Of a DNA stretch of 39,955 nt, positions 603 through 39,677 are shown in pieces. This DNA comes from Magnetovibrio sp. GTDB lineage: Bacteria; Pseudomonadota; Alphaproteobacteria; Rhodospirillales; Magnetovibrionaceae. The notes under the pieces are model-generated. The model worked only from the letters and a program-made list of their open reading frames with translations, ran no database searches and was not told where the DNA came from. Location of the stretch: contig NZ_DATCTF010000017.1 of the NCBI RefSeq assembly GCF_036568125.1, positions 1 through 39,955 of the forward strand, given 5' to 3'. The translations under genes were made by a program, and so were the position numbers. Within the stretch, counting starts at the first letter, position 1; every line of letters starts with the position of its first letter.

Positions 603-1055
603 TCAATTTGATCGCTCCTCTTTAAGTGCAGCCCTGTATGTGGCTACATACGCTGCCGCAATGGTTTCTATGGGAAGCTGAAATCCTGCATCCTTCAAAA
701 CCTGTTGTAAATTAAGAGCTTTACTCACTTCTAGCACGACAGCCGTCATAAGTTCTTCGTCCAACTCATCTGGCGCTGCATTGGTGTTTTTGAAGTATTC
801 GCCTGTGGCGATCCAATCCAGGGAAACCCCACAAGCCTTAGCGATCCGGGATAGCGAGACAATTTTTGGCTCGGATAATCCTCTGGTGTAATTCCCAATC
901 GTCCGAAGTGGAACACCACTTTTTTCTGCCACAACAGCGTTGCCTCCCGATTCGCGAATCGTTTTACGGATTCGTTCGGATATTTCGGACTTCAGAGCCT
1001 CAACTCCGAAATCGTCGTCATCATTTTCCTGTGATTTCGTTGTTGCTCTAACCAT
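603..1055 (-). CDS. CI/c-like lysogeny repressor (HTH, XRE type)
   Basis: The 150-aa product has a helix-turn-helix at about residues 25-80 (core VVAEKSGVPLRTIGNYTRG, then LSRIAKACGVSLDWIATGE), the usual XRE/Cro-CI signature including the SLDWI(A/L)TG end. No LexA-type S24 peptidase domain follows; the C-terminal 70 residues (LMTAVVLEVSKAL..) are probably the dimerisation part. It is the only early gene on the minus strand and is divergent from ner, the position of the Mu repressor c. It presumably binds sites in 1056-1220 and silences the early operon. The absence of an autoprotease domain suggests control other than RecA-stimulated self-cleavage. Confidence 0.85.
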   Translation of the reverse strand: MVRATTKSQENDDDDFGVEALKSEISERIRKTIRESGGNAVVAEKSGVPLRTIGNYTRGLSEPKIVSLSRIAKACGVSLDWIATGEYFKNTNAAPDELDEELMTAVVLEVSKALNLQQVLKDAGFQLPIETIAAAYVATYRAALKEERSN

Positions 1056-2358: not shown

Positions 2359-2822
2359 TGGCGAAAAAACCCGCCCCCAGCACATTGCCGTCGCTTTTGC
2401 TTTGGACGCCGCCGCATGACGTTGTGGTGCGGTTTAAAGATGAGCGCGTGCGCACCGCCACGCTGCGGTCGCAACTCTCTCGGGCGGTTTCCGAAACCCT
2501 TACCGATGCGGATGCAACCCGCGACGAAATCGCTCAGAAAATGAGCGAGTGGTTGGGTGAGAACGTTTCCAAAGAGATGCTCGACAACTACGCGAGCGAG
2601 GCCAAGGAAGATCACGCAATTAGCCTGCCGCGCGCCATCGCCTTGATCGAGGTGACCGGCGACGTGCGCCTACTGCAATTGATCGCAGAAATGTTCGGTC
2701 ATGTCGTGATCGAAAGCCGCTATCTGTACGCCGTCGATGAGGCGATGGTCACCGAAGAAATGGAGCGGCTGGCTAAAAAGAAAAAGCAATGCCGCAAAGC
2801 CTGGAAAGGCGGTGTGTCATGA
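2358..2822 (+). CDS. Conserved early protein before transposase
   Basis: A 154-aa protein from the ATG at 2358 that overlaps the ParB-like stop (TGATG); a GTG one codon earlier is less likely. It is mostly helical by appearance, with segments such as SQLSRAVSETLTDAD, IAQKMSEWLGENVSKEMLDNYASEAKEDHAISLPRAIALIEVTGD and a basic tail. The middle resembles the helical part of XRE-like DNA-binding proteins (SLPRAIALIEVTGDVRLL). It overlaps the transposase start by ATGA, so the two are translationally coupled. I do not assign a function. Confidence 0.65.
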   Translation: MAKKPAPSTLPSLLLWTPPHDVVVRFKDERVRTATLRSQLSRAVSETLTDADATRDEIAQKMSEWLGENVSKEMLDNYASEAKEDHAISLPRAIALIEVTGDVRLLQLIAEMFGHVVIESRYLYAVDEAMVTEEMERLAKKKKQCRKAWKGGVS

Positions 2823-4942
2823 AGGAATGGTTTACCGCCGCTGAACTGGCGTCAATGGCGCTGAAAGGTATGCCCGGCACGGATCGCGGCATCCAATCGC
2901 TTGCCAAACGGGAATGCTGGAACTCACGCACAAATGCTGCCGGGGGCATGTTGACCCGTAAGCGTGAGGGCCGAGGTGGTGGCGTTGAATACCACTACAC
3001 ACTTTTGCCGATGAAAGCACAGGCCAAAATCGTTGCCGATATGGCCCCTGCGAAAGTGTCGAAAGCCGTTGAAAAATCGGCCCTCGCTTCGCCTGATTTG
3101 TGGGCATTCTTCGAAGCGCTGCCAGACGCGCGCAAGGATAAAGCAAAACAGAAACTGCAAGTCATCGAAGAGGTCGAAGGGCTCTATCGCGGTGGGGTGC
3201 TGAAGAACCTTGCTGTGCATACGGTGGCGGCGCGCCACGGTGTGACACCGGCAACGGTTTTCAATTGGTACAAGCTGGTTGCGGGCGTGCCGCGTCCAGA
3301 TCGGCTGCCCGCTCTTGCACCCCGTCACATAGGCCGCACCAAAACCGCCGAGTGCGCGCCCGAGGCATGGGAACTGATCAAGTCGGATTATCTGCGCGGA
3401 GAGCGCCCGACGTTCGAAAGCTGTTATCGCCGCCTGGAACGCGCCGCCAAAGCCCATGGCTGGTCCATTCCATCTTCAGCCACCCTTGAGCGCCGCATTG
3501 AACGCGAGATTGCACTGCCCGTTCGCGTGCTGGCGCGTTATGGCGTTGATCGTCTCAAAACCATGTATCCAGCCCAAGAACGCGACCGCTCGATCTTCCA
3601 CGCCCTGGAAGCCGTCAACGCCGATGGTCACAAGTGGGATGTGTGGGTTCAGTGGCCAGATGAAGACAAGCCGATCCGCCCGATGATGGTGGCGATCCAA
3701 GATTTGTATTCAGGTAAATTTCTGGCCTGGCGATTTGATAAATCTGAAAACAAGGACGCGGTGCGTCTCGCGATCGGTGATGTAGTCGAAGAGTATGGCA
3801 TCCCCGATCACATCTATCTCGATAACGGTCGCGGGTTCGCTTCCAAGTGGTTGACCGGCGGCATAGCCAATCGCTTCCGCTTCAAGATCAAGGACGAAGA
3901 GCCGGTCGGAATTCTCACCCAGTTGGGTGTTGAGGTGCACTGGACCTTGCCTTACAGCGGCCAATCAAAGCCCATTGAAAGGGCCTTTAGAGACTTTTGC
4001 GACGACATAGCCAAACACCCTGCATTCGCCGGAGCATGGACCGGTAACTCTCCCGTCAACAAGCCTGAAAACTACGGTTCACACGCCGTCCCGCTTGAAG
4101 ACTTCGTGCGTATCGTCAACGAAGAAATTGAACACCACAACCAACGCACAGACCGCCGCGCCGCCGTTTGTAAGGGGCGGTCGTTCTCTGAAACGTTCGC
4201 TGCATCCTATGAGCAAGCACCCATCAAAAAGGCCACCGAGGAACAGCGCCGACTGTGGTTGTTGGCCGCTGAAGGGGTGACCTGCGCCGCGCGCGATGGT
4301 GCGATCAAGTTGATGGGAAACCGCTATTGGAGCGATTTCCTGCACGGTCACATGGGCAAGAAATTGGTGGTGCGATTTGATCCCGATGATCTGCACGCCG
4401 GGCTGCACGTCTATCGCCTAGACGGTTCGTATCTTGGCTATGCCGATGTGATCATGGCCGCTGGTTTCAACGACACCACCAGCGCCCGCGAACATGGCCG
4501 CACGCGGCGCGCCTTCATCAAAAACACCAAGACCATGTACGAGCAGCACGTCAAGCTCACCGGCCAAGAGATCGCCGCTACCCAGCCCATCCCCGACAAC
4601 ATGCCGCCGATAAAAAACAAAGTGGTGCGCATGGCCGCAGCGCCGGGTGTTGATCCGCTGATGAAGCGGCCAGAACCAAAATCAACGCCCCTCGATAAAC
4701 GCCAGGAAGCCGTGCACGAGCGCGTGGTGGAAAGCCTCGCGGCGCATCGCCCGGCCAAGCCCGAGAACACACCTGAAGCACGCTATGCCCGCGCCAGTGG
4801 GCTGGAACACAAGATCGCTGCCGGTGGCCAGGTGAGTGCCGAGGATCGCCAGTGGTTGCAGCGCTATCAGGGCACCGCCGAGTACCAGGCGCGCCACAGG
4901 ATGGAAGTGAGTTTCGGAACCCGAGCAGATTTCGCCGGGTAA
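2819..4942 (+). CDS. A: MuA-like DDE transposase
   Basis: From the ATG at 2819 (ATGA overlap) the product is 707 aa. It starts MKEWFTAAELASMALKGMPG, matching the Mu DNA-binding domain that contacts the enhancer. The catalytic RNase H-like domain carries D269 (NADGHKWDVWV), D335 (IYLDNGRG) and E387 (QSKPIERAF), nearly the same numbering as MuA (D269, D336, E392). KWLTGG, RFRFK and HPAFAGAWTGNSP also match MuA. The C-terminal portion is the usual MuB/ClpX-contact region. It binds the end repeats, nicks and joins phage DNA for replicative transposition. All three catalytic residues are intact. Confidence 0.95.
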   Translation: MKEWFTAAELASMALKGMPGTDRGIQSLAKRECWNSRTNAAGGMLTRKREGRGGGVEYHYTLLPMKAQAKIVADMAPAKVSKAVEKSALASPDLWAFFEALPDARKDKAKQKLQVIEEVEGLYRGGVLKNLAVHTVAARHGVTPATVFNWYKLVAGVPRPDRLPALAPRHIGRTKTAECAPEAWELIKSDYLRGERPTFESCYRRLERAAKAHGWSIPSSATLERRIEREIALPVRVLARYGVDRLKTMYPAQERDRSIFHALEAVNADGHKWDVWVQWPDEDKPIRPMMVAIQDLYSGKFLAWRFDKSENKDAVRLAIGDVVEEYGIPDHIYLDNGRGFASKWLTGGIANRFRFKIKDEEPVGILTQLGVEVHWTLPYSGQSKPIERAFRDFCDDIAKHPAFAGAWTGNSPVNKPENYGSHAVPLEDFVRIVNEEIEHHNQRTDRRAAVCKGRSFSETFAASYEQAPIKKATEEQRRLWLLAAEGVTCAARDGAIKLMGNRYWSDFLHGHMGKKLVVRFDPDDLHAGLHVYRLDGSYLGYADVIMAAGFNDTTSAREHGRTRRAFIKNTKTMYEQHVKLTGQEIAATQPIPDNMPPIKNKVVRMAAAPGVDPLMKRPEPKSTPLDKRQEAVHERVVESLAAHRPAKPENTPEARYARASGLEHKIAAGGQVSAEDRQWLQRYQGTAEYQARHRMEVSFGTRADFAG

Positions 4943-4948
4943 AGAAAT

Positions 4949-4979
4949 GCCCGCCCCGGCGTGCATGCCGAAGGCGGGC
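4949..4979 (+). other. Intercistronic hairpin between transposase A and B
   Basis: GCCCGCC (4949-4955) pairs with GGCGGGC (4973-4979), and an inner CGGC/GCCG pair (4957-4960, 4967-4970) lengthens the stem. It sits 6 bp after the A stop and ends about 12 bp before the B ribosome site (GAGAGGA). No T-run follows. It could protect or process the mRNA and set the A:B ratio. Confidence 0.6.
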
Positions 4980-5002
4980 GATATCAACGAAGAGAGGATA
5001 AA

Positions 5003-5737
5003 ATGACAGACCAACAGAGCAGCGTCAATACCATCGCGCCATTGAAAAACGTCGCGCGGTTCACGGAACTGGTCGAGCGACTGGTCAACCGTCCGCCTGA
5101 ATTGCCCGGCTTTGGGCTGTTCTCAGGCCGCGCCGGTTTGGGCAAGACCTTCGCCGCCATGTACGCCATCAACGTGTATCGCGCGTTCTATGTCGAGTGC
5201 GATTTCACCTGGACACAGAAAGCCTTTTGCGAGGCCGTTATGGTCGAGCTGGGCCTGTTGCCGCCGCGCACGGTTCTCAAACAACCCATTCACCGTGCGG
5301 TGGCGTTGATCGGCGATCACTTGGCCGATCATCCGCGCCGCCCGCTGATCATCGACGAGGCCGACTTCCTGGTGAAGCGCGGCATGATCGAAATCGTGCG
5401 CGCAATTTCCAAGCACAGTGCGACGGCGGGTTCGAGCATCATCCTGATTGGTGAAGAGAACATGCCCAACGCCCTCAAAATGTGGGAGCGCGTTGACAGC
5501 CGCGTGTTGAAAGGCATCAAGGCCGCGCCGACGGATCAAGACGATGTGAGGGTCTTGGCGCAATTGGTATGCCCCAACCTCAGTTTTGAAGACGACGTGA
5601 TCGCAAAGCTGCGCAGTTGCACCAACGGCAGCGCCCGGCGCGTGGTCACCAAACTCTATGACCTACGCGAGTTGGCCGTACTGAACGACATCACCACCGT
5701 CACGCTCGATGCGTGGGACCCAGCGGAGGCGTCGTGA
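5003..5737 (+). CDS. B: MuB-like AAA+ ATPase, target-DNA activator
   Basis: The start at 5003 is chosen because AGAGAGGA precedes it; a longer frame from 4961 would cross the hairpin. The 244-aa product has Walker A GRAGLGKT (42-49) and Walker B LIIDEAD (115-121), followed by sensor-like SSIILIGEEN. MuB binds ATP and DNA, captures target DNA and stimulates the transposase. It is somewhat shorter than MuB (312 aa), lacking the N-terminal HTH domain, as in other B3/D3112-type phages. It overlaps the next gene by TGATG. Confidence 0.92.
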   Translation: MTDQQSSVNTIAPLKNVARFTELVERLVNRPPELPGFGLFSGRAGLGKTFAAMYAINVYRAFYVECDFTWTQKAFCEAVMVELGLLPPRTVLKQPIHRAVALIGDHLADHPRRPLIIDEADFLVKRGMIEIVRAISKHSATAGSSIILIGEENMPNALKMWERVDSRVLKGIKAAPTDQDDVRVLAQLVCPNLSFEDDVIAKLRSCTNGSARRVVTKLYDLRELAVLNDITTVTLDAWDPAEAS

Positions 5738-30645: not shown

Positions 30646-31172
30646 TGCCGGGCCACCTGAAAACCACCGCCGCGACCAAAGCCGCAGTGCAGCGCGACCG
30701 CGAGGAAGTGTTTTTGACCTGCTTCACGGTCACGCACCCCGAACTGGCCCAGCCGCTGCGCATGGTTTCGAACACCGAAGACATCGTGCGCAACACCAAG
30801 ACCTATGTCGCCATGCCGCTTGAGGTGGGCTTGCCCGATGACGATCCGGACCGCCCGCCGCGCGTGCCGGTGAGCATCGAAAATTGGGGCGAAGGCGATC
30901 TGTCGCGCTTGTCCCCTGAAGATCAGGCCGCGTTTAAGACGCCGATGGAGGTGTTCGACACGTTCGTCGATCCGCCCGAGGTCGATCTTGAGGTGATCAT
31001 GGCCAGCGCCCCGGACGAGCCGGAGATGGGGCCGATCCGCATGCAGTTCACGTCCGTCGAAATCGGCGAAGCCATGATCGACGGCGAGCTGAGCGCCGAC
31101 GACGGCTTCGCCCAAGAGCCCTATCCGGGGCCGTCGTTCGGACCGAAAGAAACACCGGGGTTACATCGATGA
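30645..31172 (+). CDS. DUF1833-like minor tail protein (gpL-like)
   Basis: The 175-aa product (LTCFTVTHPELAQPLRMVSNTEDIVRNTKTYVAMPLEVGLPDDDPDRPPRVPVSIENW) matches the DUF1833 pattern of minor tail L-type proteins. Starts with one-base overlap and overlaps the NlpC gene by ATGA. It helps attach the tail tip. Confidence 0.75.
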   Translation: MPGHLKTTAATKAAVQRDREEVFLTCFTVTHPELAQPLRMVSNTEDIVRNTKTYVAMPLEVGLPDDDPDRPPRVPVSIENWGEGDLSRLSPEDQAAFKTPMEVFDTFVDPPEVDLEVIMASAPDEPEMGPIRMQFTSVEIGEAMIDGELSADDGFAQEPYPGPSFGPKETPGLHR

Positions 31173-31585
31173 CGCAAGAACCAAGCTGGGTCGGCAAATA
31201 CATCGGACTGCCGTTCGTCGAAAAAGGCCGCGATTTCGACGGCGTGGATTGCTATGGGCTGTATTGGTTGATCCGGAGCGAGGAATATGGCGAGACGCTG
31301 CCGATGTTCCTTGAAAACTTCTCACCCGAGGATGTGGCTTACATTCGCGGCCTGATCGCCGGGCGCTTGGATGCATGGCGCAAACTCGACAAGCCCGAAA
31401 TCGGCTGCGGCGTGCTGTTGAAGGTGCAAGGGCAAGACAGCCACATCGGCGTGATGATCGGACCGGATACCTTCATTCACGTCAACGACGACGCCAACCA
31501 GGTGCACAAAGATCGCATCGGCGGTTTGATGTGGCCACAGCGCAAGGTCGTGGGCTATTACGCCTGGCCGGGCGGTGCGTCATGA
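31169..31585 (+). CDS. NlpC/P60 tail peptidase (gpK-like)
   Basis: The 138-aa product has FDGVDCYGLYWLI with catalytic Cys28, DSHIGVMIGPD with His92 and FIHV (His104). NlpC/P60 endopeptidases in the tail tip cleave peptidoglycan during DNA entry. The order M-L-K then tip is as in lambda. It is followed by a gene on the opposite strand. Confidence 0.85.
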   Translation: MTQEPSWVGKYIGLPFVEKGRDFDGVDCYGLYWLIRSEEYGETLPMFLENFSPEDVAYIRGLIAGRLDAWRKLDKPEIGCGVLLKVQGQDSHIGVMIGPDTFIHVNDDANQVHKDRIGGLMWPQRKVVGYYAWPGGAS

Positions 31586-31587
31586 CG

Positions 31588-31935
31588 TTATTGGCTGGCG
31601 CAGGATTCGATAATGGCCCGTTCACGTTCACGCACATCTTCGACGGTGTATCGAAGGCTAACATCCGTAACGTGATCGGACGACCGACGGAACTCCGCAA
31701 TTCCGACCCATCGACCATCAATGGTGTAGTGGTGTTCAGCGAGATTAAGCTCGTTAAAAACCAGTCCAACACCCGTATGTGCCTGTGGCGAATAGCAGTG
31801 AAAGACGGCTTGATAATTTCCAGGAACGCTAAAATTGACGCTCTGGGTGTTTGCGGTCAACTCGGTTCTAGAGTCATAACCAACACACCCGGTGACCGTT
31901 GCGATCAACAGCATCGTGCTACAAAGTTTTTTCAT
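31588..31935 (-). CDS. Minus-strand lipoprotein moron in tail operon
   Basis: An isolated minus-strand gene between the NlpC/P60 and tail tip genes. From ATG 31935 (or ATG 31941, GGGAG upstream) it encodes 115 aa beginning MKKLCSTMLLIATVTGC, a lipoprotein signal with lipobox VTGC (Cys17). The residue after the cysteine is Val, so outer-membrane sorting is likely. The mature part contains two further cysteines (FHCYSPQ and ESCASQ), able to form a disulfide. The stretch is visibly less GC-rich than its neighbours, which suggests later acquisition. The likely use is lysogen expression and surface exclusion of related phages, as known for other phage lipoproteins, but this is inferred. Confidence 0.75.
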   Translation of the reverse strand: MKKLCSTMLLIATVTGCVGYDSRTELTANTQSVNFSVPGNYQAVFHCYSPQAHTGVGLVFNELNLAEHHYTIDGRWVGIAEFRRSSDHVTDVSLRYTVEDVRERERAIIESCASQ

Positions 31936-31965
31936 GATCATTTTGCTCCCTGCAATCACCTGTGG

Positions 31966-31995
31966 AGCATAGCGAAAAGTCTTGGGGGGCGTCAT
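31966..31995 (-). promoter_or_regulatory. Candidate promoter of the lipoprotein moron
   Basis: On the minus strand TATGCT (31966-31971) and ATGACG (31990-31995) are separated by 18 bp and resemble -10 and -35 elements. They lie just upstream of the moron start and overlap the start of the tail tip gene on the other strand. Proposed from pattern only. Confidence 0.4.
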
Positions 31996-34900
31996 GTCTA
32001 ATCTGCCTGTCCCCACTGACATGTCCAATTCCAACCCTCTGCATTTGATGGTCAGCCGGTCGGTGATCGATCCCCGTCCGGTGCGCATGGACTGGGCGGC
32101 GGACCGGACCGTTTTGGAGCTGGTCGCTGAACTGGTCGCCGCCAAGCACCTGGCGCGGGCGGTGCTGAACGCCGAGACGGATTGGCAGCTTTATATCGTC
32201 ATCGCCCATCCGGACCCGCGCATTGCGCCAATGACGGTACCGCGCGAACGCTGGGCGATGATCAAGCCCAAACCGGGGATGATCTTGTCGCTGGCGATCC
32301 GCCCCGGCAAGGGCGGCGGCGGCAAGAACCCAATGCGCACGTTGCTGATGATCGCGGTGATCGCGGCCAGTTATGGTGTTGCGTCTTGGGCATCCGCCTA
32401 TGCTGTATCAAATATGGGTGTTGCGGCGGGCTCCTTTGCCGCCAAGGCCATCGGCGGACTCGCCAGTGGACTGGTCACCGCCATCGGCAACACCATCATC
32501 AATTCCATCGCCCCCGCGCCGCGCCCGACGCTGTCCAACCTACAGGGGCGGTTCGCCAGCGATGGGCGGTCGTTGTCCAGTCAACAGCGCCAGGTGAGCG
32601 GCACGCGCAACACCGCCGACCCGTTCGGGCCGATCCCCCAGCCGTTGGGCGGCGGGCGCATCGCGCCGCGTTTGGCGGCGGAACCGTATATCGAGGCCAG
32701 CGGCGCGGACACCTATCTGCGCCAACCGATGGTGTTCGGCGTGGGGCCGACGCGGATCAAGAACCTGAAAATCGGCCCGACGCCGTTGGAACAATACGAA
32801 GACTACGATCTGGAATTGCGCGAGGGCTGGGATGACGATGCGGAATTGACCCTGTATCCAGAAACGCCGAAAAGCGACCAGCACAACCGCACGCTGGCCC
32901 ATAACGACCCCGTCGTCGTCGAAACCCGCACCTGCAAAGAGGCGGTGTTGGATTTTTCCTTTCCGTCCGGGCTGGTGTATTTTACCGACGACGGTACGCC
33001 CGCATCGACCGCCGTGCGGCTGCGCATCGAGCGCCGCCTGAAAGGCACAAGCGATTGGGCCGTGGTGGAAACCACCACCCACGCACCGCAAACCGATACC
33101 TATTTCGACGCGGCTTGGTATTTGACCCGCCATCCCGACGTGGCTGGCGATGCGTACTTTGGCAGCCGCCCTTGGGAGCATTACACCAACCACGGCAGAT
33201 CAGAGGGCCGCGCGGTCAAATGGAAAAGCGCCGACGTGTGGGAGCTGCGCGGCGACAGCGAATACCCGCAACTGCGCAGCTGTCGGCTGACGATGCCGGA
33301 TCACACGTGCTATGAGGTCCAGATCACCCGGTTGAACGCGGAATCGACCTCGCTGCGCACCCGCGACGAATGCCGCATCGCCACGGTCAAGAACATTTCA
33401 CCATCGAACCCCATCGGCCTGGGCGGTTTGGCCACCGGCGCGATCCGTTACAAAACCGGTAAGGATTTTCACGACATCGTCGATCAGCTGACCGCCGAGG
33501 TCGAGCCGCTGGTCTATTACCCCGATGAAAACGACGTGTGGGATTGGCGCTACACCGAAAACCAAGCCTGGTTGGCGTTTCACGTTTTGACGGGCCGCGC
33601 CAACCGCAAGGCCATCGCCCTGGCCGATGTGCCCAACCGCATCGACCTGGCGGCGTTTCGCGCCTTTGCCGCGTTCTGCGATGAAGTTCCCGCCAACGGC
33701 ACCGGCCCGCGTTTTCGCTATAAGCACCTGGTCGATTACCGCACCAGCGTTTTGCAAAAGGCCCAAGACATTTGCGCCACCGCGCGTGGCCAGTTGGTCA
33801 AGATCGCGGGCAAATATTCGGTGGTGTTCGACGGCCCCAAAGGGTCCGAAGACGCCATCGTCGCGCCGGAAAATTCTTGGAATTTTGCGCGCCGCATCAC
33901 CTATGTGCAACTGCCCCACGGCTTGCGGGTGCGCTATGAAGATCCGGACGACGGCATCAAGGAAGTGATCGTCTATCGCAAAGGCTACACCGCCGATACC
34001 GCGACCTTGTTCGAGGCGTTGGAATTGGAAGGCTGCCCAACCGCGGAACAAGCGTACAGGGAGGGCACCTATTGGTTCGAAGTGACGCAATTGCGCCGCG
34101 CGACGACGTTTTTGAGCCTGAGCCTTTATCACCTCACCTTCACCGTGGGGTCGGTGGTGCGGGTTGCCCATCCGATCCCGCGTTGGGGCTTGGCGACGGG
34201 CGACATCGCCAGCGTCACCAAAAACGGCGGCGGGCAGATCATCGCCATCACCCTGAAGACCCCGGTGATCATGGAAGCCGCGAAAGCCTATTGCGTTCGA
34301 ATCAGGCTCAAGGACAACAGCTCCGTCTATGAGCTGGTGGATACCGTGGCGGGTGAACAAACAACGCTGACCTTGCAAACGCCCATCGACCGCATCAACC
34401 CCATCGACCCCGACACCGAGCCAGGCGCGGGCGATCTGGTGACGTTTGGCGAACGCGATTTTGAAACCCGGCGCTTGATCTGCAAAAAAGTGCGCCGCCT
34501 GAACGACGATTTTGACGCGCGGTGCGAGTTTGCCGACGAAGCCCCGGAAGTTCACACCATCGAGCAGGAAGCAATCCCGGCGCACATCACCAGCACGGTC
34601 AGCAACCGGCTGACCGGCGCGCCGGAACCGGTTGTCCACCTGCAAGTGGTCGAGCGCATCACCTTCGTCGCGGGCATGCCGATTTCGTCCGTGTTGGCCA
34701 CGTGGTCGCCCGCCGATGGAACCTTGCCCGCCGCGTATGAGGTTTACCGCCTGACGGACGACGGCATCTGGGTTTATCAAATGCCGGTGACCCAGGGGCG
34801 TTATGAGCTTCAGGGCGTGACGGTCGGCGAAACGGTCACGCTAGCGGTTCTGGCGGTCGGGCGGTTGGGCGGCAAGTTGTCGATCGACGACGCGCCGACG

Positions 34901-36019
34901 GCAAGCGTAACCATTGCGGGCGATGTGCAAGGCCCCGGCGATTTGCGCCGCTTGACGGTCGAAGAAACGGCCAGTGGTGTGCGGCGGTTTCAGGCCGAAT
35001 ACGACCGCGCCCCGGATCATGCCGGGTTCCGCTTTAAATACCACGTCGGCAGTGCGCGCCATTGGGCGTCGGGATTGCCGTTGCACGATGAGCTGGTCAC
35101 CGCGTTGCCGTTTGAGACCGACCGTTTGACGACGGGCACCTACACGGTGCTGGCCAAGGCCGTGGACACCAGCGGCAACGAGTCGGACAACGCCGCCGTG
35201 GTGGTGATGAACCTGGGCGAGCGCTTGGTCGAAAACGTGATCCAAAGCGTTGATCTTGGCGCGTTGGGTTTCGCCGGTACGGTCACCGGCGGCGCGGTCG
35301 CGGGCGGTGAGGTTGTGGCCGATGACCCCGGCACGCCGTTTTGGTCGATCTGGGCCACGCCGTTTTGGGCCGGGGACACGGAACCGTTTTGGACGGCCAA
35401 TCAGAACCCATTTTGGATCGGCGATACAAAGGCTTTTTGGGCCAATGAAGCGGCCCCGTTTTGGCAGGCCATTTACAACGCGGTGACCTATCAAGACGGC
35501 TTTGTCGCAGAAGGGCCGGGCATATTGAGCATCGATGTCGCGGGTCGCGGCGCGCTGTCGGTTGAATATCGGTCTCGCTATGGACGGCCCTTTTGGATTG
35601 ATCCGGACGCTGATTTTTGGACTGACCCCACAGCCACGTTTTGGCACGAAGACGACTGGCGCGCCTATTCCGGCCCGGTGCGCACCACCGAGGGCGATCA
35701 CGACATTCGCATCACCGCGCCGTCCGGGGTGACGCGCGGGCGAATCACGACGCTGAGCGCGACCATCGATTTGGAAGACGATGTGCAAAAGGTCGAAGAC
35801 GTCGTCATTTCGGCGGCGGGCACGCGGGTGCCGTTGGCCCGCGCCATGCGTTCGATCAAGGCGGTCAACATTTCCATTCAAGACGACGGCGGCGATGCGG
35901 TGACCTGGCGGGTCATCGACAAAGACCCGGCGCTGGGGCCGCTCATCGAGCTGCGCACAGCCGGGCTTGCTGCAACTTCGGGACTTATCGACGCGACCAT
36001 TCAAGGAGTAAGAAAATGA
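31994..36019 (+). CDS. Tail tip / host specificity protein (I-J fusion like)
   Basis: From ATG 31994 (GGGGGG upstream) the product is 1341 aa. N-terminal part contains a hydrophobic segment (MRTLLMIAVIAASYGVASWASAYAV, then GLASGLVTAIGNTIINSIAP), as in lambda I-type proteins. A large tail tip core follows (PMVFGVGPTRIKNLKIGPTPLEQYEDYDLELREGW, FAAFCDEVPANGTGPRFRYKHLVDYRTSVLQ), then fibronectin-like domains. An unusual segment (about residues 370-410, YFDAAWYLTRHPDVAG..., HYTNHGRSEGRAVKW) resembles DPDV-HY-EGR repeats of bacterial surface proteins. Near the end is a FW repeat array. Overlaps the fibre gene by ATGA. Confidence 0.82.
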   Translation: MSNLPVPTDMSNSNPLHLMVSRSVIDPRPVRMDWAADRTVLELVAELVAAKHLARAVLNAETDWQLYIVIAHPDPRIAPMTVPRERWAMIKPKPGMILSLAIRPGKGGGGKNPMRTLLMIAVIAASYGVASWASAYAVSNMGVAAGSFAAKAIGGLASGLVTAIGNTIINSIAPAPRPTLSNLQGRFASDGRSLSSQQRQVSGTRNTADPFGPIPQPLGGGRIAPRLAAEPYIEASGADTYLRQPMVFGVGPTRIKNLKIGPTPLEQYEDYDLELREGWDDDAELTLYPETPKSDQHNRTLAHNDPVVVETRTCKEAVLDFSFPSGLVYFTDDGTPASTAVRLRIERRLKGTSDWAVVETTTHAPQTDTYFDAAWYLTRHPDVAGDAYFGSRPWEHYTNHGRSEGRAVKWKSADVWELRGDSEYPQLRSCRLTMPDHTCYEVQITRLNAESTSLRTRDECRIATVKNISPSNPIGLGGLATGAIRYKTGKDFHDIVDQLTAEVEPLVYYPDENDVWDWRYTENQAWLAFHVLTGRANRKAIALADVPNRIDLAAFRAFAAFCDEVPANGTGPRFRYKHLVDYRTSVLQKAQDICATARGQLVKIAGKYSVVFDGPKGSEDAIVAPENSWNFARRITYVQLPHGLRVRYEDPDDGIKEVIVYRKGYTADTATLFEALELEGCPTAEQAYREGTYWFEVTQLRRATTFLSLSLYHLTFTVGSVVRVAHPIPRWGLATGDIASVTKNGGGQIIAITLKTPVIMEAAKAYCVRIRLKDNSSVYELVDTVAGEQTTLTLQTPIDRINPIDPDTEPGAGDLVTFGERDFETRRLICKKVRRLNDDFDARCEFADEAPEVHTIEQEAIPAHITSTVSNRLTGAPEPVVHLQVVERITFVAGMPISSVLATWSPADGTLPAAYEVYRLTDDGIWVYQMPVTQGRYELQGVTVGETVTLAVLAVGRLGGKLSIDDAPTASVTIAGDVQGPGDLRRLTVEETASGVRRFQAEYDRAPDHAGFRFKYHVGSARHWASGLPLHDELVTALPFETDRLTTGTYTVLAKAVDTSGNESDNAAVVVMNLGERLVENVIQSVDLGALGFAGTVTGGAVAGGEVVADDPGTPFWSIWATPFWAGDTEPFWTANQNPFWIGDTKAFWANEAAPFWQAIYNAVTYQDGFVAEGPGILSIDVAGRGALSVEYRSRYGRPFWIDPDADFWTDPTATFWHEDDWRAYSGPVRTTEGDHDIRITAPSGVTRGRITTLSATIDLEDDVQKVEDVVISAAGTRVPLARAMRSIKAVNISIQDDGGDAVTWRVIDKDPALGPLIELRTAGLAATSGLIDATIQGVRK
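35336..35644 (+). repeat. FW octapeptide repeats (24-bp period) in tip gene
   Basis: Codon groups for PFW (one AFW) begin at 35336, 35360, 35384, 35408, 35432 and 35456; a second cluster starts at 35588, 35612 and 35636. Each lies exactly 24 bp from the next in its cluster. The peptides follow the pattern xPFWxxxx with acidic and small residues between. Probably a beta-repeat or host-surface binding module. Confidence 0.85.
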
Positions 36020-37280: not shown

Positions 37281-37847
37281 ATGGATATGCAAATGACAAT
37301 TTCGAATGCACGTTTTTCTAACGAAGCCCATACCCAAATCGCCGCCGACATCGATGGCGTTGAAGTGTCGATCCCTGCCATCGATGGCAACCGCCATTAT
37401 GAAGCCATCAAGGCCCAAGCCATCACCCCGACGGCCTACGTCGGCCCGGCACTGGCCGAGGTGCAAGCCGACGCCAAGCGCACCATCGACGCACAAGCCG
37501 AGGCGGCACGGTTGAGCTACATCACCCCCGGCGATGGCCAGGCGATGAGTTACCGCGAGAAATCGGACCAGGCGCGCGAGTGTTTGGCCGCTCACACCCC
37601 CGCCAGCCCGCCCGCGCCGGGCGTCTATGTGCTGCTCGATTCCGAAGTCGGCATCATGAAAAATGCAGATACCACGATCACCGCAGACGCCTATGAGGTT
37701 GCCGTGGTGGTCGAGGCCACCCGCCAAGCCTGGTTGGCCGTCGAAGCGACCATCAACCGCACCCGCGTGCAAGCCAAAGCCGACATCGCTGCCGCCACCA
37801 CCGAAGCCGAGATCGATGCGGTGTTGGCGGCGCTGGTGTGGGTGTGA
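37281..37847 (+). CDS. Tail fibre assembly-like protein
   Basis: The 188-aa product (ISNARFSNEAHTQIAADIDGVEVSIPAIDGNRHYEAIKAQAITP..., LVWV) is acidic and helical and directly follows the fibre, starting 3 bp later. The RTRVQAKADIAAATTEAEIDAVLAALVWV end has the repeated TEAEI-type motif of fibre chaperones. Specific family uncertain. Confidence 0.55.
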   Translation: MDMQMTISNARFSNEAHTQIAADIDGVEVSIPAIDGNRHYEAIKAQAITPTAYVGPALAEVQADAKRTIDAQAEAARLSYITPGDGQAMSYREKSDQARECLAAHTPASPPAPGVYVLLDSEVGIMKNADTTITADAYEVAVVVEATRQAWLAVEATINRTRVQAKADIAAATTEAEIDAVLAALVWV

Positions 37848-37855
37848 GGGGCGGC

Positions 37856-38401
37856 ATGATGGATAAAGGCGCGATCATTTCCGAATGTGGACAATACCGC
37901 TACATGCTGTGGCGGCGTTGGGACAAGACCAAGCCGCGCCTGGTGTTCATCATGCTCAACCCATCGACGGCGGATGCGGACATCGATGACGCCACGATCC
38001 GCTTGTGCATGGGCCGCGCCAGGCGCATGGGGTATGGCGGCATCCGGGTCATCAACCTGTTTGCCTACCGCGCCACAAATCCGAGCGAATTGCGCCAGGT
38101 CGATGATCCTGTCGGGCCGGAAAATTGGAAATATCTCGAACAGCATTGCGGGTGCGGGGCCGCTGGTGAAATGACCATCGCCGCTTGGGGCAACGACGGC
38201 ACCCTCAAAGGCCAGAGCCGCGAACGTTGGCGCGAGGCCTTGGAGATCATCTGCTATGACATGGGCACGCCGCTGTATTGCCTCGGCCTGACCAAACACG
38301 GCCAGCCTAAACACCCGCTCAGAATTTCATATGAAACGCAGCCAACGCTCTGGATGGACCGGGAGCGGTGGCTCAAAAGCATTTCCCCAAAAGGCCAATA
38401 G
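37856..38401 (+). CDS. DUF1643 protein
   Basis: Start at 37856 with GAGGGG upstream. The product (181 aa) has the DUF1643 core: LVFIMLNPSTADADIDDATIRLCMGRARRMGYGGIRVINLFAYRATNPSELRQVDDPVGPENW. The family is found in phages and bacteria and is functionally uncharacterised as far as I know. It is in the right-end accessory region, where Mu-like phages carry host-range or protection genes. Confidence 0.85.
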   Translation: MMDKGAIISECGQYRYMLWRRWDKTKPRLVFIMLNPSTADADIDDATIRLCMGRARRMGYGGIRVINLFAYRATNPSELRQVDDPVGPENWKYLEQHCGCGAAGEMTIAAWGNDGTLKGQSRERWREALEIICYDMGTPLYCLGLTKHGQPKHPLRISYETQPTLWMDRERWLKSISPKGQ

Positions 38402-38533: not shown

Positions 38534-38737
38534 ATGGAGTCGATTCATTGTCCGAGCTGCAAAAAGCTGCTCGCGAAAGGAACCGTTAAGGCCCTTGAGA
38601 TAAAGTGTCCACGTTGTAAGACATTTCTTGTATTGAGGGCCAAACAGAGCCCCCCAACCGAACGCCCGCGAGCGTCACCTTTGAAGGTAGACGTTCATGG
38701 CAAAAGCGCCGAAAAACCACCATTTAAAGACCTCTAA
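38534..38737 (+). CDS. com: Com-like zinc-finger translation regulator
   Basis: The 67-aa product starts MESIHCPSCKKLLAKGTVKA and continues LEIKCPRCKTFL. The four cysteines at 6, 9, 25 and 28 and the order CxxC...IxCPRC are those of Mu Com, which binds mom mRNA to allow its translation. The C-terminal tail is basic/proline-rich. It overlaps the methyltransferase start by 41 bp, as com and mom overlap in Mu. The partner gene here encodes a methyltransferase, not a Mom enzyme. Confidence 0.88.
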   Translation: MESIHCPSCKKLLAKGTVKALEIKCPRCKTFLVLRAKQSPPTERPRASPLKVDVHGKSAEKPPFKDL

Positions 38738-39677
38738 AGACGCCCTTTATAGGGACTTTTTTTATCCGCCATTTTCCACCCTCGACGCCCGTTCCGGCTG
38801 GTGGCAAGCGCGCAAACGCCAATGGTTGGCCATCGGTCTGCAAAGCGAACGTGGTCGGGGCAATGCCTTCACATCAATATCTTCTGCGTGGCAGGCCCAA
38901 CAGGGAAAGCCCAATAGTTCAAAAACTCCTATAGAATCGGCCCCCAGTTGGGTGACAACCAGCATTTTTGACCCCGTTTTATGTGAGCTGATGTATCGCT
39001 GGTTTGTGCCGCGCGGCGGGCTGGTTTTTGATCCTTTCGCGGGCGGCTCCGTGCGCGGAATTGTGGCCGCAAAGCTGGGGCTCGAATACATCGGCTTTGA
39101 CATCCGCGCCGAGCAAATCAAAGCCAACCAGGCTCAAGCCAAAGCTTTGCTCAACCGCGATAGCCCTAAACCCATTTGGAAGGAAAAGGACGCTTGTGCA
39201 CGTTCGATTTATCAGAGCCTGCGCAAGCGTCCCGATTTTCTGTTCACCTGTCCCCCATACGGTGATTTGGAGGTCTATTCTGATCATCCAGACGATATCT
39301 CGGCCATGCCGTGGGACACCTTTGCTGGCGCATTGACGCATTCGATCAAACAGGCGTCGGCGCGGCTGGCTGACAACCGCTTTGCGGCGTTTGTTGTCTC
39401 CGATATCCGCGACAAAAAAGGCAACTACAGGGGCCTCCCAGACGTGGTCCGCGCGGCCTTCAAAGACGCTGGCCTGGGCTATCACAGCGAGGCAGTTCTG
39501 ATCAATGCGTTGGGCACCGTGCCAATCCGCAGCCGGGGTTATTTTGAGAATGATCGGAAGCTTGCCCGAGCACATCAAAACGTCCTGTTATTCGTCAAGG
39601 GCTGCCCCAAAAAGGCGAAGGATGATATCGGTGATGTGCCATGCGACGACACGTTGTTAAGCATCGGCAGAACATAA
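38697..39677 (+). CDS. DNA methyltransferase downstream of com
   Basis: The 326-aa product has SAM-binding DPFAGGSVRG (112-121), YIGFDIRAEQ (131-140) and catalytic TCPPYGDLE (184-192). The order is motif I then IV. The CPPY tetrapeptide points to N6-adenine or N4-cytosine methylation. An upstream FDPVLCELMYRWFVP matches motif X of such phage methylases. Its start overlaps com and its reading frame passes through a hairpin with T-run (38736-38763). In the mom position it probably modifies phage DNA against restriction. It is not homologous to Mu Mom. Confidence 0.85.
   Translation: MAKAPKNHHLKTSKDALYRDFFYPPFSTLDARSGWWQARKRQWLAIGLQSERGRGNAFTSISSAWQAQQGKPNSSKTPIESAPSWVTTSIFDPVLCELMYRWFVPRGGLVFDPFAGGSVRGIVAAKLGLEYIGFDIRAEQIKANQAQAKALLNRDSPKPIWKEKDACARSIYQSLRKRPDFLFTCPPYGDLEVYSDHPDDISAMPWDTFAGALTHSIKQASARLADNRFAAFVVSDIRDKKGNYRGLPDVVRAAFKDAGLGYHSEAVLINALGTVPIRSRGYFENDRKLARAHQNVLLFVKGCPKKAKDDIGDVPCDDTLLSIGRT
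38736..38763 (+). terminator. Attenuator-like hairpin at com/methylase junction
   Basis: CCCT (38743-38746) and AGGG (38751-38754) pair around TTAT, with outer AAAG (38736-38739) and CTTT (38756-38759). T7 (38757-38763) follows. It begins right after the com stop but lies inside the methylase coding region (codons 14-23). A terminator here would stop methylase transcription while leaving com intact. Com or translation could prevent it. Confidence 0.6.

Follow-up and report, generated by a model that had tools for sequence, protein, structure and literature searches.

The window analysed here, one entire contig of its assembly (G000:C17, 39955 bases), carries a plus-strand tail operon that is interrupted, between its NlpC/P60 gene and its tail tip gene, by a single open reading frame on the minus strand. 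What does such a gene do inside an operon read in the other direction, and is it the minus strand that codes? The original prediction, made from the sequence alone, saw here a moron encoding a small lipoprotein for surface exclusion or host fitness.

The antisense gene and its phage

The window phage is a Mu-like transposable siphophage, with a phage repressor gene (603..1055, minus strand; phrog_3037, E 5.1e-14), a MuA-type transposase (2789..4942, plus strand; phrog_310, E 1.2e-177), a MuB-type transposition protein (4961..5737, plus strand; phrog_296, E 1.2e-42) and a J-type tail. The MuA-type transposase is also present in genomes G268, G278 and G251 and in the records of loci L007-L009, and in G268 and G251 its distance upstream from the slot between the NlpC/P60 and tip genes is about 27-28 kb, as in the window. 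In this check of records, in which 6 of 11 handles matched, it was not found for L018, L083, L100, L088 and L099, several of which are fragments; L088 (54 kb record) and L099 (43 kb record) may be other kinds of phage. At the far end of the window, a gene for a DUF1643 protein (37838-38401, plus strand; E 1.8e-44) lies between the tail genes and a gene for a Mu Com-like zinc-ribbon protein (38534-38737, plus strand; Pfam Zn_ribbon_Com, E 8.4e-10), which overlaps the DNA methylase gene that follows (38697-39677, plus strand; N6_N4_Mtase, E 1.7e-9). Phage Mu has com-mom at the corresponding place, and it is possible that this methylase is Com-controlled.

The slot is bounded upstream by the NlpC/P60 tail gene (31169..31585, plus strand; phrog_329, E 1.4e-12; Pfam NLPC_P60, E 2.9e-4 and 21.2 bits, slightly below the cut-off of 23) and downstream by the gene for a J-like central tail fibre or tip protein (31994..36019, plus strand; phrog_31, E 5.9e-79), hereafter J. 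The minus-strand frame predicted between them is present, and its homologues occupy the same slot on the same strand. Its predicted extent, 31588-31995, is right for the open reading frame and probably too long for the gene: 31995 is the first in-frame ATG (MTPPK...), and aligned homologues begin near later ATGs. The probable start is the ATG at 31941, four bases 3' of a GGAG (31949-31946 read on the minus strand) that is a candidate Shine-Dalgarno sequence (31946..31949). This gives a gene at 31588..31941 on the minus strand (117 amino acids, MIMKKL...), placed by its reading frame and translation, by the homologues in the same position and by the coding test on three related alleles described below.

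The predicted lipobox VTGC is there, and its cysteine is Cys19, or Cys17 as predicted if translation begins at the alternative ATG at 31935 (minus strand, 115 amino acids); aligned relatives have a lipobox as well. The putative signal peptide (31885..31941, minus strand, with the lipidated cysteine codon at 31885-31887) was delimited from the sequence and from a stretch modelled at low confidence before a well-modelled mature domain. The mature protein has 99 residues counting the cysteine, one more than predicted. Under the +2 sorting rule, an Asp after the lipidated Cys bears on outer-membrane sorting, and Asp is absent from this position in the window protein and in nine other translated lipoproteins.

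The low GC content that had been noticed is real. The coding part stands at 49.9%, a value equally low in 2 of 2069 GC windows across the late operon (15500-37300) and reached or undercut in 112 of 3885 across the whole contig. The predicted promoter, by contrast, did not hold up: a sigma-70 scan of 31200-32400 recognised none, including in the spacer that separates the starts of the lipoprotein and J (31942..31993), and the best match upstream of the gene, 8 of 12 positions, is ordinary, being equalled or exceeded in 725 of 2000 random 150-base stretches of the window. The consensus may not hold for alphaproteobacterial promoters, and a promoter, if any, would lie within that spacer or the 5' end of J. 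Over the same 31200-32400 no terminator was recognised directly behind the gene; a terminator-like minus-strand site lies at 31243-31227, inside the NlpC/P60 gene, in a scan that found 3 such sites against 1.2 expected. The insert is also flanked by two copies of the 8-base word GCGTCATG, the left at 31577..31584 and the right, which contains the J start codon, at 31989..31996. A flanking repeat, GATGAGC, occurs in L064, and no flanking words of more than 5 bases were found in L015-L018, L083 and L100 (the J starts of the last two being guesses). Since the flanking words are inconsistent among loci, no insertion mechanism is claimed.

Opposite the lipoprotein gene, and in codon register with it, the plus strand has an open frame (31582..32001) that begins with an ATG overlapping the NlpC stop and ends with a TAA within the J start; both strands were therefore tested for coding. 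The test used three alleles of the Thalassospira type, our name for the prophages of G268 and G278 and related viral contigs. In the three pairwise comparisons, substitutions at the three codon positions of the minus frame numbered 7/4/31, 4/2/23 and 5/2/29, so that the third position takes 31 of 42, 23 of 29 and 29 of 36 of them. Synonymous to nonsynonymous changed codons stood at 29:9, 22:5 and 27:6 on the minus strand, against 5:33, 4:23 and 4:29 in the codon-register plus frame and 22:17, 16:12 and 20:12 in the best other plus frame. Because the changes are mostly synonymous on the minus and not the plus strand, it is the minus-strand gene that codes, and purifying selection acts on its protein in these relatives; the window copy is assigned to the same strand by homology to them. 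A plus-strand gene in the gap was rejected, its frame not being conserved between alleles; such a gene, frame-conserved in relatives, was what the original prediction had named as evidence against itself, and it was not seen in the three alleles.

The NlpC-J junction among relatives

Close homologues of the lipoprotein are few. The genome that carries the window has one copy at E <= 0.01 (the second place, E 0.41, falls inside a long unrelated frame), and no other of the 6 genomes of the genus has it. Matches in 5 of 317 genomes of the order reduce to three real ones, in the window's own genome, G268 and G278; the match in G245 (L005) is a 47-residue stretch of 48% identity across long frames of another gene, that in G159 (L006) covers 38 residues with internal stops, and both were rejected. 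A profile search of the class returned 1 of 385 genomes, again the window's own, and in the genus of G268 2 of 29 genomes have the gene. Viral contigs yielded L007-L009, and L018 was reached via its NlpC gene. In the Thalassospira-type prophages and L018 the homologues are 33-35% identical to the window protein and lie antisense between NlpC/P60 and J. Searching phages with the window protein by tblastn gave nothing, and searching plasmids gave weak matches only, in unrelated genes.

A wider view of the slot was obtained from relatives of NlpC in viral contigs (among the matches listed) and in the genomes of the order and class. Loci sharing the same 150 bases at the NlpC end were counted as duplicates, and a junction was called filled when the implied J start lay at least 200 bases after the NlpC stop. 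The 213 NlpC loci among the matches listed comprised 59 duplicates, 14 with NlpC and J fused, 7 that were too short, 121 with an empty junction, 10 with a filled one and 2 without a recognised J (L039 and L088). An antisense lipoprotein is present in L088 too, where other genes take the expected place of J, which brings the insert-bearing loci among those listed to 11. These counts are not natural frequencies, since only loci within reach of the NlpC profile were seen and near-identical empty loci were left unmerged. The insert is antisense in 11 of the 11, and in 10 it encodes a lipoprotein, at least one of them unrelated in sequence; the lone exception, L226, has an antisense DUF551 protein (E 1.5e-5). 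About nine insert lineages are represented: the window, three Thalassospira-type alleles, L018, L064, L083, L100, L088, L099 and L226.

A prediction fixed after the scan for new loci but before those loci were analysed, that any NlpC-J insertion would be an antisense lipoprotein, failed at L226, which was the only new filled case; the 74 new loci otherwise comprised 29 empty junctions, with the remainder duplicates, fused or too short. The narrower statement that every insert is antisense held. Minus-strand lipoboxes were scanned for in 138 loci: 8 were located at the junction and another 8 at other places in the flanks. The scan misses L100, whose lipoprotein was read from the list of open reading frames. 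Three further observations concern the junction itself. L034 has extra plus-strand coding there and was counted as empty. In L088 (2905-5290) another antisense gene (3394-3852), whose start resembles a signal peptide, stands behind the lipoprotein gene, and further genes occupy J's place. In the 14 fused loci, including L019, L020, L104, L108 and L110, NlpC/P60 and a J-like protein form one continuous open frame.

Named phages that lack the gene offer the comparison that the original prediction had proposed. RcapMu, ppBeUSDA76-1 and Mwe-Yong1 share with the window the order tape measure, two small genes, NlpC/P60 and J, but their slot is empty and J begins four bases inside NlpC; in the annotation of RC1, 83 bases separate the two genes. 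The lipoprotein gene thus behaves as the moron it was proposed to be, a single gene of deviant base composition between genes that adjoin in relatives (121 empty junctions against 11 inserts among the matches listed). For Mu-like phages, the literature describes morons lodged between neighbouring genes, with a base composition that stands out and, in some cases, a part in lysogenic conversion (PMC4378225).

Sequence families, variation and predicted fold

As the original prediction had it, no family is recognised. None of the curated families in Pfam, PHROG or NCBIfam matched the window lipoprotein above its own cut-off, and Pfam LPAM_1 reached E 2.3 only. Two weak links were seen. The first is to phrog_914 (118 positions, function unknown), which matches L064 at E 1.3e-4 over nearly its full length, L100 at E 0.023 and L018 at E 0.051; the window protein is unmatched, and a phrog_914 search of the window's own genome gave no useful match. 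The second is to NCBIfam BPTD_2524, which gives the window protein 16.8 bits (E 0.0066), L018 13.2 bits and L088 23 bits (E 7.9e-5), all far short of the cut-off of 50 bits; a BPTD_2524 search of 31 relatives found none, with the controls equally silent. Judged from these searches, the lipoprotein sequence itself is new, with weak links to phrog_914 and BPTD_2524, and the gene belongs to a known kind, the phage lipoprotein morons. The Cor family (phrog_1119) was considered and rejected: it touches only residues 1-22 of L018, the signal peptide, at E 0.038, and does not match the window protein.

The inserts were also compared as profiles against an alignment of the window, Thalassospira and L018 proteins. 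L083 scored 90.8% over 109 columns, L088 together with phiLM21 gp18 94.7% over 66 columns (the N-terminal half), L064 together with L100 85.2% over only 44 N-terminal columns, and L064 alone 39.8% over 68 columns. L099 reached 2.2%, an indication that high profile scores such as these do not come from the signal peptide alone. Eight aligned members share three invariant residues, the lipobox Cys, one Tyr (in an NYQ/GYQ motif) and a C-terminal Cys.

The lipoprotein also differs more between relatives than its neighbours do. Between L018 and the Thalassospira type, protein identity is 84-87% for NlpC and 83-87% for J, as compared with 40-41% for the lipoprotein. At the DNA level, NlpC is 81-85% and J beyond base 300 is 80-84% identical, against 66, 72 and 66% for the lipoprotein gene and 67-71% for the spacer, values to be read beside a shuffled control with a mean of 63 and a maximum of 67 (20 shuffles of one pair). 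By these comparisons the insert has either been exchanged or is changing far more quickly than most of the sequence around it. Variability is also higher in the first 300 bases of J (65-86% DNA identity) than in the rest of J in L007-L009 and L018, independently of the lipoprotein. Over J residues 850-1178, up to the end of the L018 contig, L008 and L018 share 93% identity, and their lipoproteins 41%; tips so alike beside lipoproteins so different argue against a strict key-and-lock relation between a lipoprotein and its own phage's tip.

AlphaFold, run with 8 sequences, returned a confident model (mean pLDDT 87.1, pTM 0.77) in which the signal peptide is poorly modelled and the mature lipoprotein is predicted to form a compact small alpha/beta domain, in the order helix, strand, helix, four strands, helix. 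The model of the divergent L100 is poor (pLDDT 64.2, pTM 0.51), with the same order of elements after the signal helix. Foldseek gave no match in the PDB at E <= 0.001 and no known exclusion protein. Its best PDB match was the envelope lipoprotein Flpp3 (E 2.2e-3, TM 0.55), with BamC domains lower, and a single viral match was to a phage protein annotated simply as 'Lipoprotein' (E 4.7e-4, TM 0.62, 4% identity). A profile search of the PDB with the lipoprotein had a best E of 0.72. The homology and structure check called for by the original prediction produced homologues and a confident alpha/beta model, and no match to a known exclusion protein.

Proposed function of the lipoprotein and of the strand opposite

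We propose, at about an even chance, that the gene encodes an outer-membrane lipoprotein expressed in the lysogen, most likely a superinfection-exclusion protein. In the lysogen, with the late operon shut off, a promoter of its own would drive transcription of the gene, and the product would be exported, lipidated and sorted to the outer membrane, where it would block competing phages by occupying their receptor or obstructing DNA entry. The antisense orientation would keep its expression separate from late transcription. The conserved slot beside J, the cassette-like variation, a relative beside a prophage repressor in phiLM21 and the published exclusion lipoproteins speak indirectly for this proposal.

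The published systems resemble the window gene to different degrees. Of 48 mEpimmI coliphage genomes, 40 have a predicted Lpp, encoded in the structural gene cluster and falling into four sequence types; several phages were excluded when Lpp021 or Lpp010 was expressed, and neither stopped mEp013 (PMC11893012). Like the window lipoprotein, these are described as small lipobox proteins of temperate phages encoded among structural genes; unlike it, they act in E. coli hosts and their exclusion was tested (PMC11893012). In T5-like phages, a gene for a receptor-blocking lipoprotein, Llp, stands beside that for the receptor-binding protein, and BF23 Llp is reported to do the same job as T5 Llp without being homologous to it (PMC4728585, PMC9586334). 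These phages are lytic, and Llp is made in the infected cell (PMC4728585), whereas the window gene belongs to a temperate phage and is antisense in the tail operon; no profile or fold match of the window lipoprotein to Llp was found. Ltp of the Streptococcus thermophilus phage TP-J34 is described as a lipoprotein transcribed in the prophage that blocks DNA injection (PMC3952083). It differs in its Gram-positive host and in its place in the genome, the lysogeny module (PMC3952083), and no sequence match to it was found.

The location of Ltp is shared by gp18 of the Sinorhizobium phage phiLM21, the sole relative found among named phages, which has a lipobox LAGC and the NYQ motif and lies directly downstream of an XRE prophage repressor, in the same direction, rather than in a tail operon. 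It is 30% identical to the L088 protein, and is linked to the window family only through L088 and a profile match of the N-terminal half. A limited search of the open literature gave no description of a fixed antisense slot between tail genes, nor of an antisense tail-gene prophage lipoprotein with a role in superinfection. If the exclusion proposal is right, the search for exclusion lipoproteins in alphaproteobacterial Mu-like siphophages and related phages has a single address, NlpC/P60-J, and phages that differ in the allele but hardly elsewhere could be paired naturally to ask what each allele blocks.

The strongest competitor, distinctly less probable in our view, is a lipoprotein of lysogenic conversion with an effect on host fitness (stress, envelope, nutrients or adhesion) and no exclusion of phages. 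The anatomy and the cassette variation fit it equally well, the best PDB folds, all above E 0.001, are bacterial envelope lipoproteins, and BPTD_2524, to which the weak link leads, is a bacterial lipoprotein family. However, a slot beside the tip gene and fast protein change are more expected of a contest between phages, and no metabolic or binding signature was found. It is improbable that the protein instead serves the lytic cycle, either shielding progeny from debris, as has been proposed for T5 Llp, or aiding lysis in the manner of an Rz1-type spanin. The T5-like precedent, with llp adjoining the receptor-binding gene and expressed in the infected cell (PMC4728585), favours such a role, but the gene is antisense to the late operon, and late transcription does not make its product. 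The modelled globular domain, moreover, seems unlike a spanin.

Very improbable is a role for the antisense transcript rather than the protein, in tuning J or NlpC expression: a transcript from within the operon could by inference run on into NlpC, no terminator having been recognised directly behind the gene, but the gene overlaps neither NlpC nor J in the window, and selection acts on the minus-strand amino-acid sequence. That the real gene lies on the plus strand, with the minus-strand frame a by-product, is scarcely credible: no stop breaks the plus frame between NlpC and J in the window, the Thalassospira type, L018, L064, L083 and L100, but nonsynonymous changes make up 33 of 38 changed codons in that frame and 9 of 38 on the minus strand, and there is nothing at the junction in 121 relatives.

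We suggest, as a rather doubtful extension, that the NlpC-J junction is an antisense cassette slot in which codon avoidance prevents stop codons on the sense strand, which would thereby serve as a translational bridge. By making a meaningless peptide across the antisense gene, ribosomes translating the late mRNA would keep NlpC and J coupled and would shield the mRNA from termination. A lipoprotein gene that uses TTA, CTA or TCA places a stop on the plus strand in codon register, and in one representative of each of eight lipoprotein lineages these codons number 0, 0, 0, 0, 0, 0, 1 and 1, against an expected sum of 7.9 by local codon usage or 13.1 adjusted to the GC3 of the gene, a comparison in which the lineages are not all independent by descent and which uses the data that first suggested the idea. 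The statistic is weakened by the control, phiLM21 gp18, which lies outside such an operon and also has 0 of these codons among 27 Leu and Ser codons. If the bridge is real, it would explain how an antisense gene is hosted inside a translationally coupled operon, and swappable exclusion lipoproteins could be carried at little cost to the tail genes. The frame runs from a start on the NlpC stop to the J start in the window, the Thalassospira type, L018 and L064, continues open into J in L083 and L100, and is not open across in L088 and L099. In L083 and L100, J may be longer at its N terminus by roughly 130 residues, which would be read from the strand opposite the lipoprotein gene.
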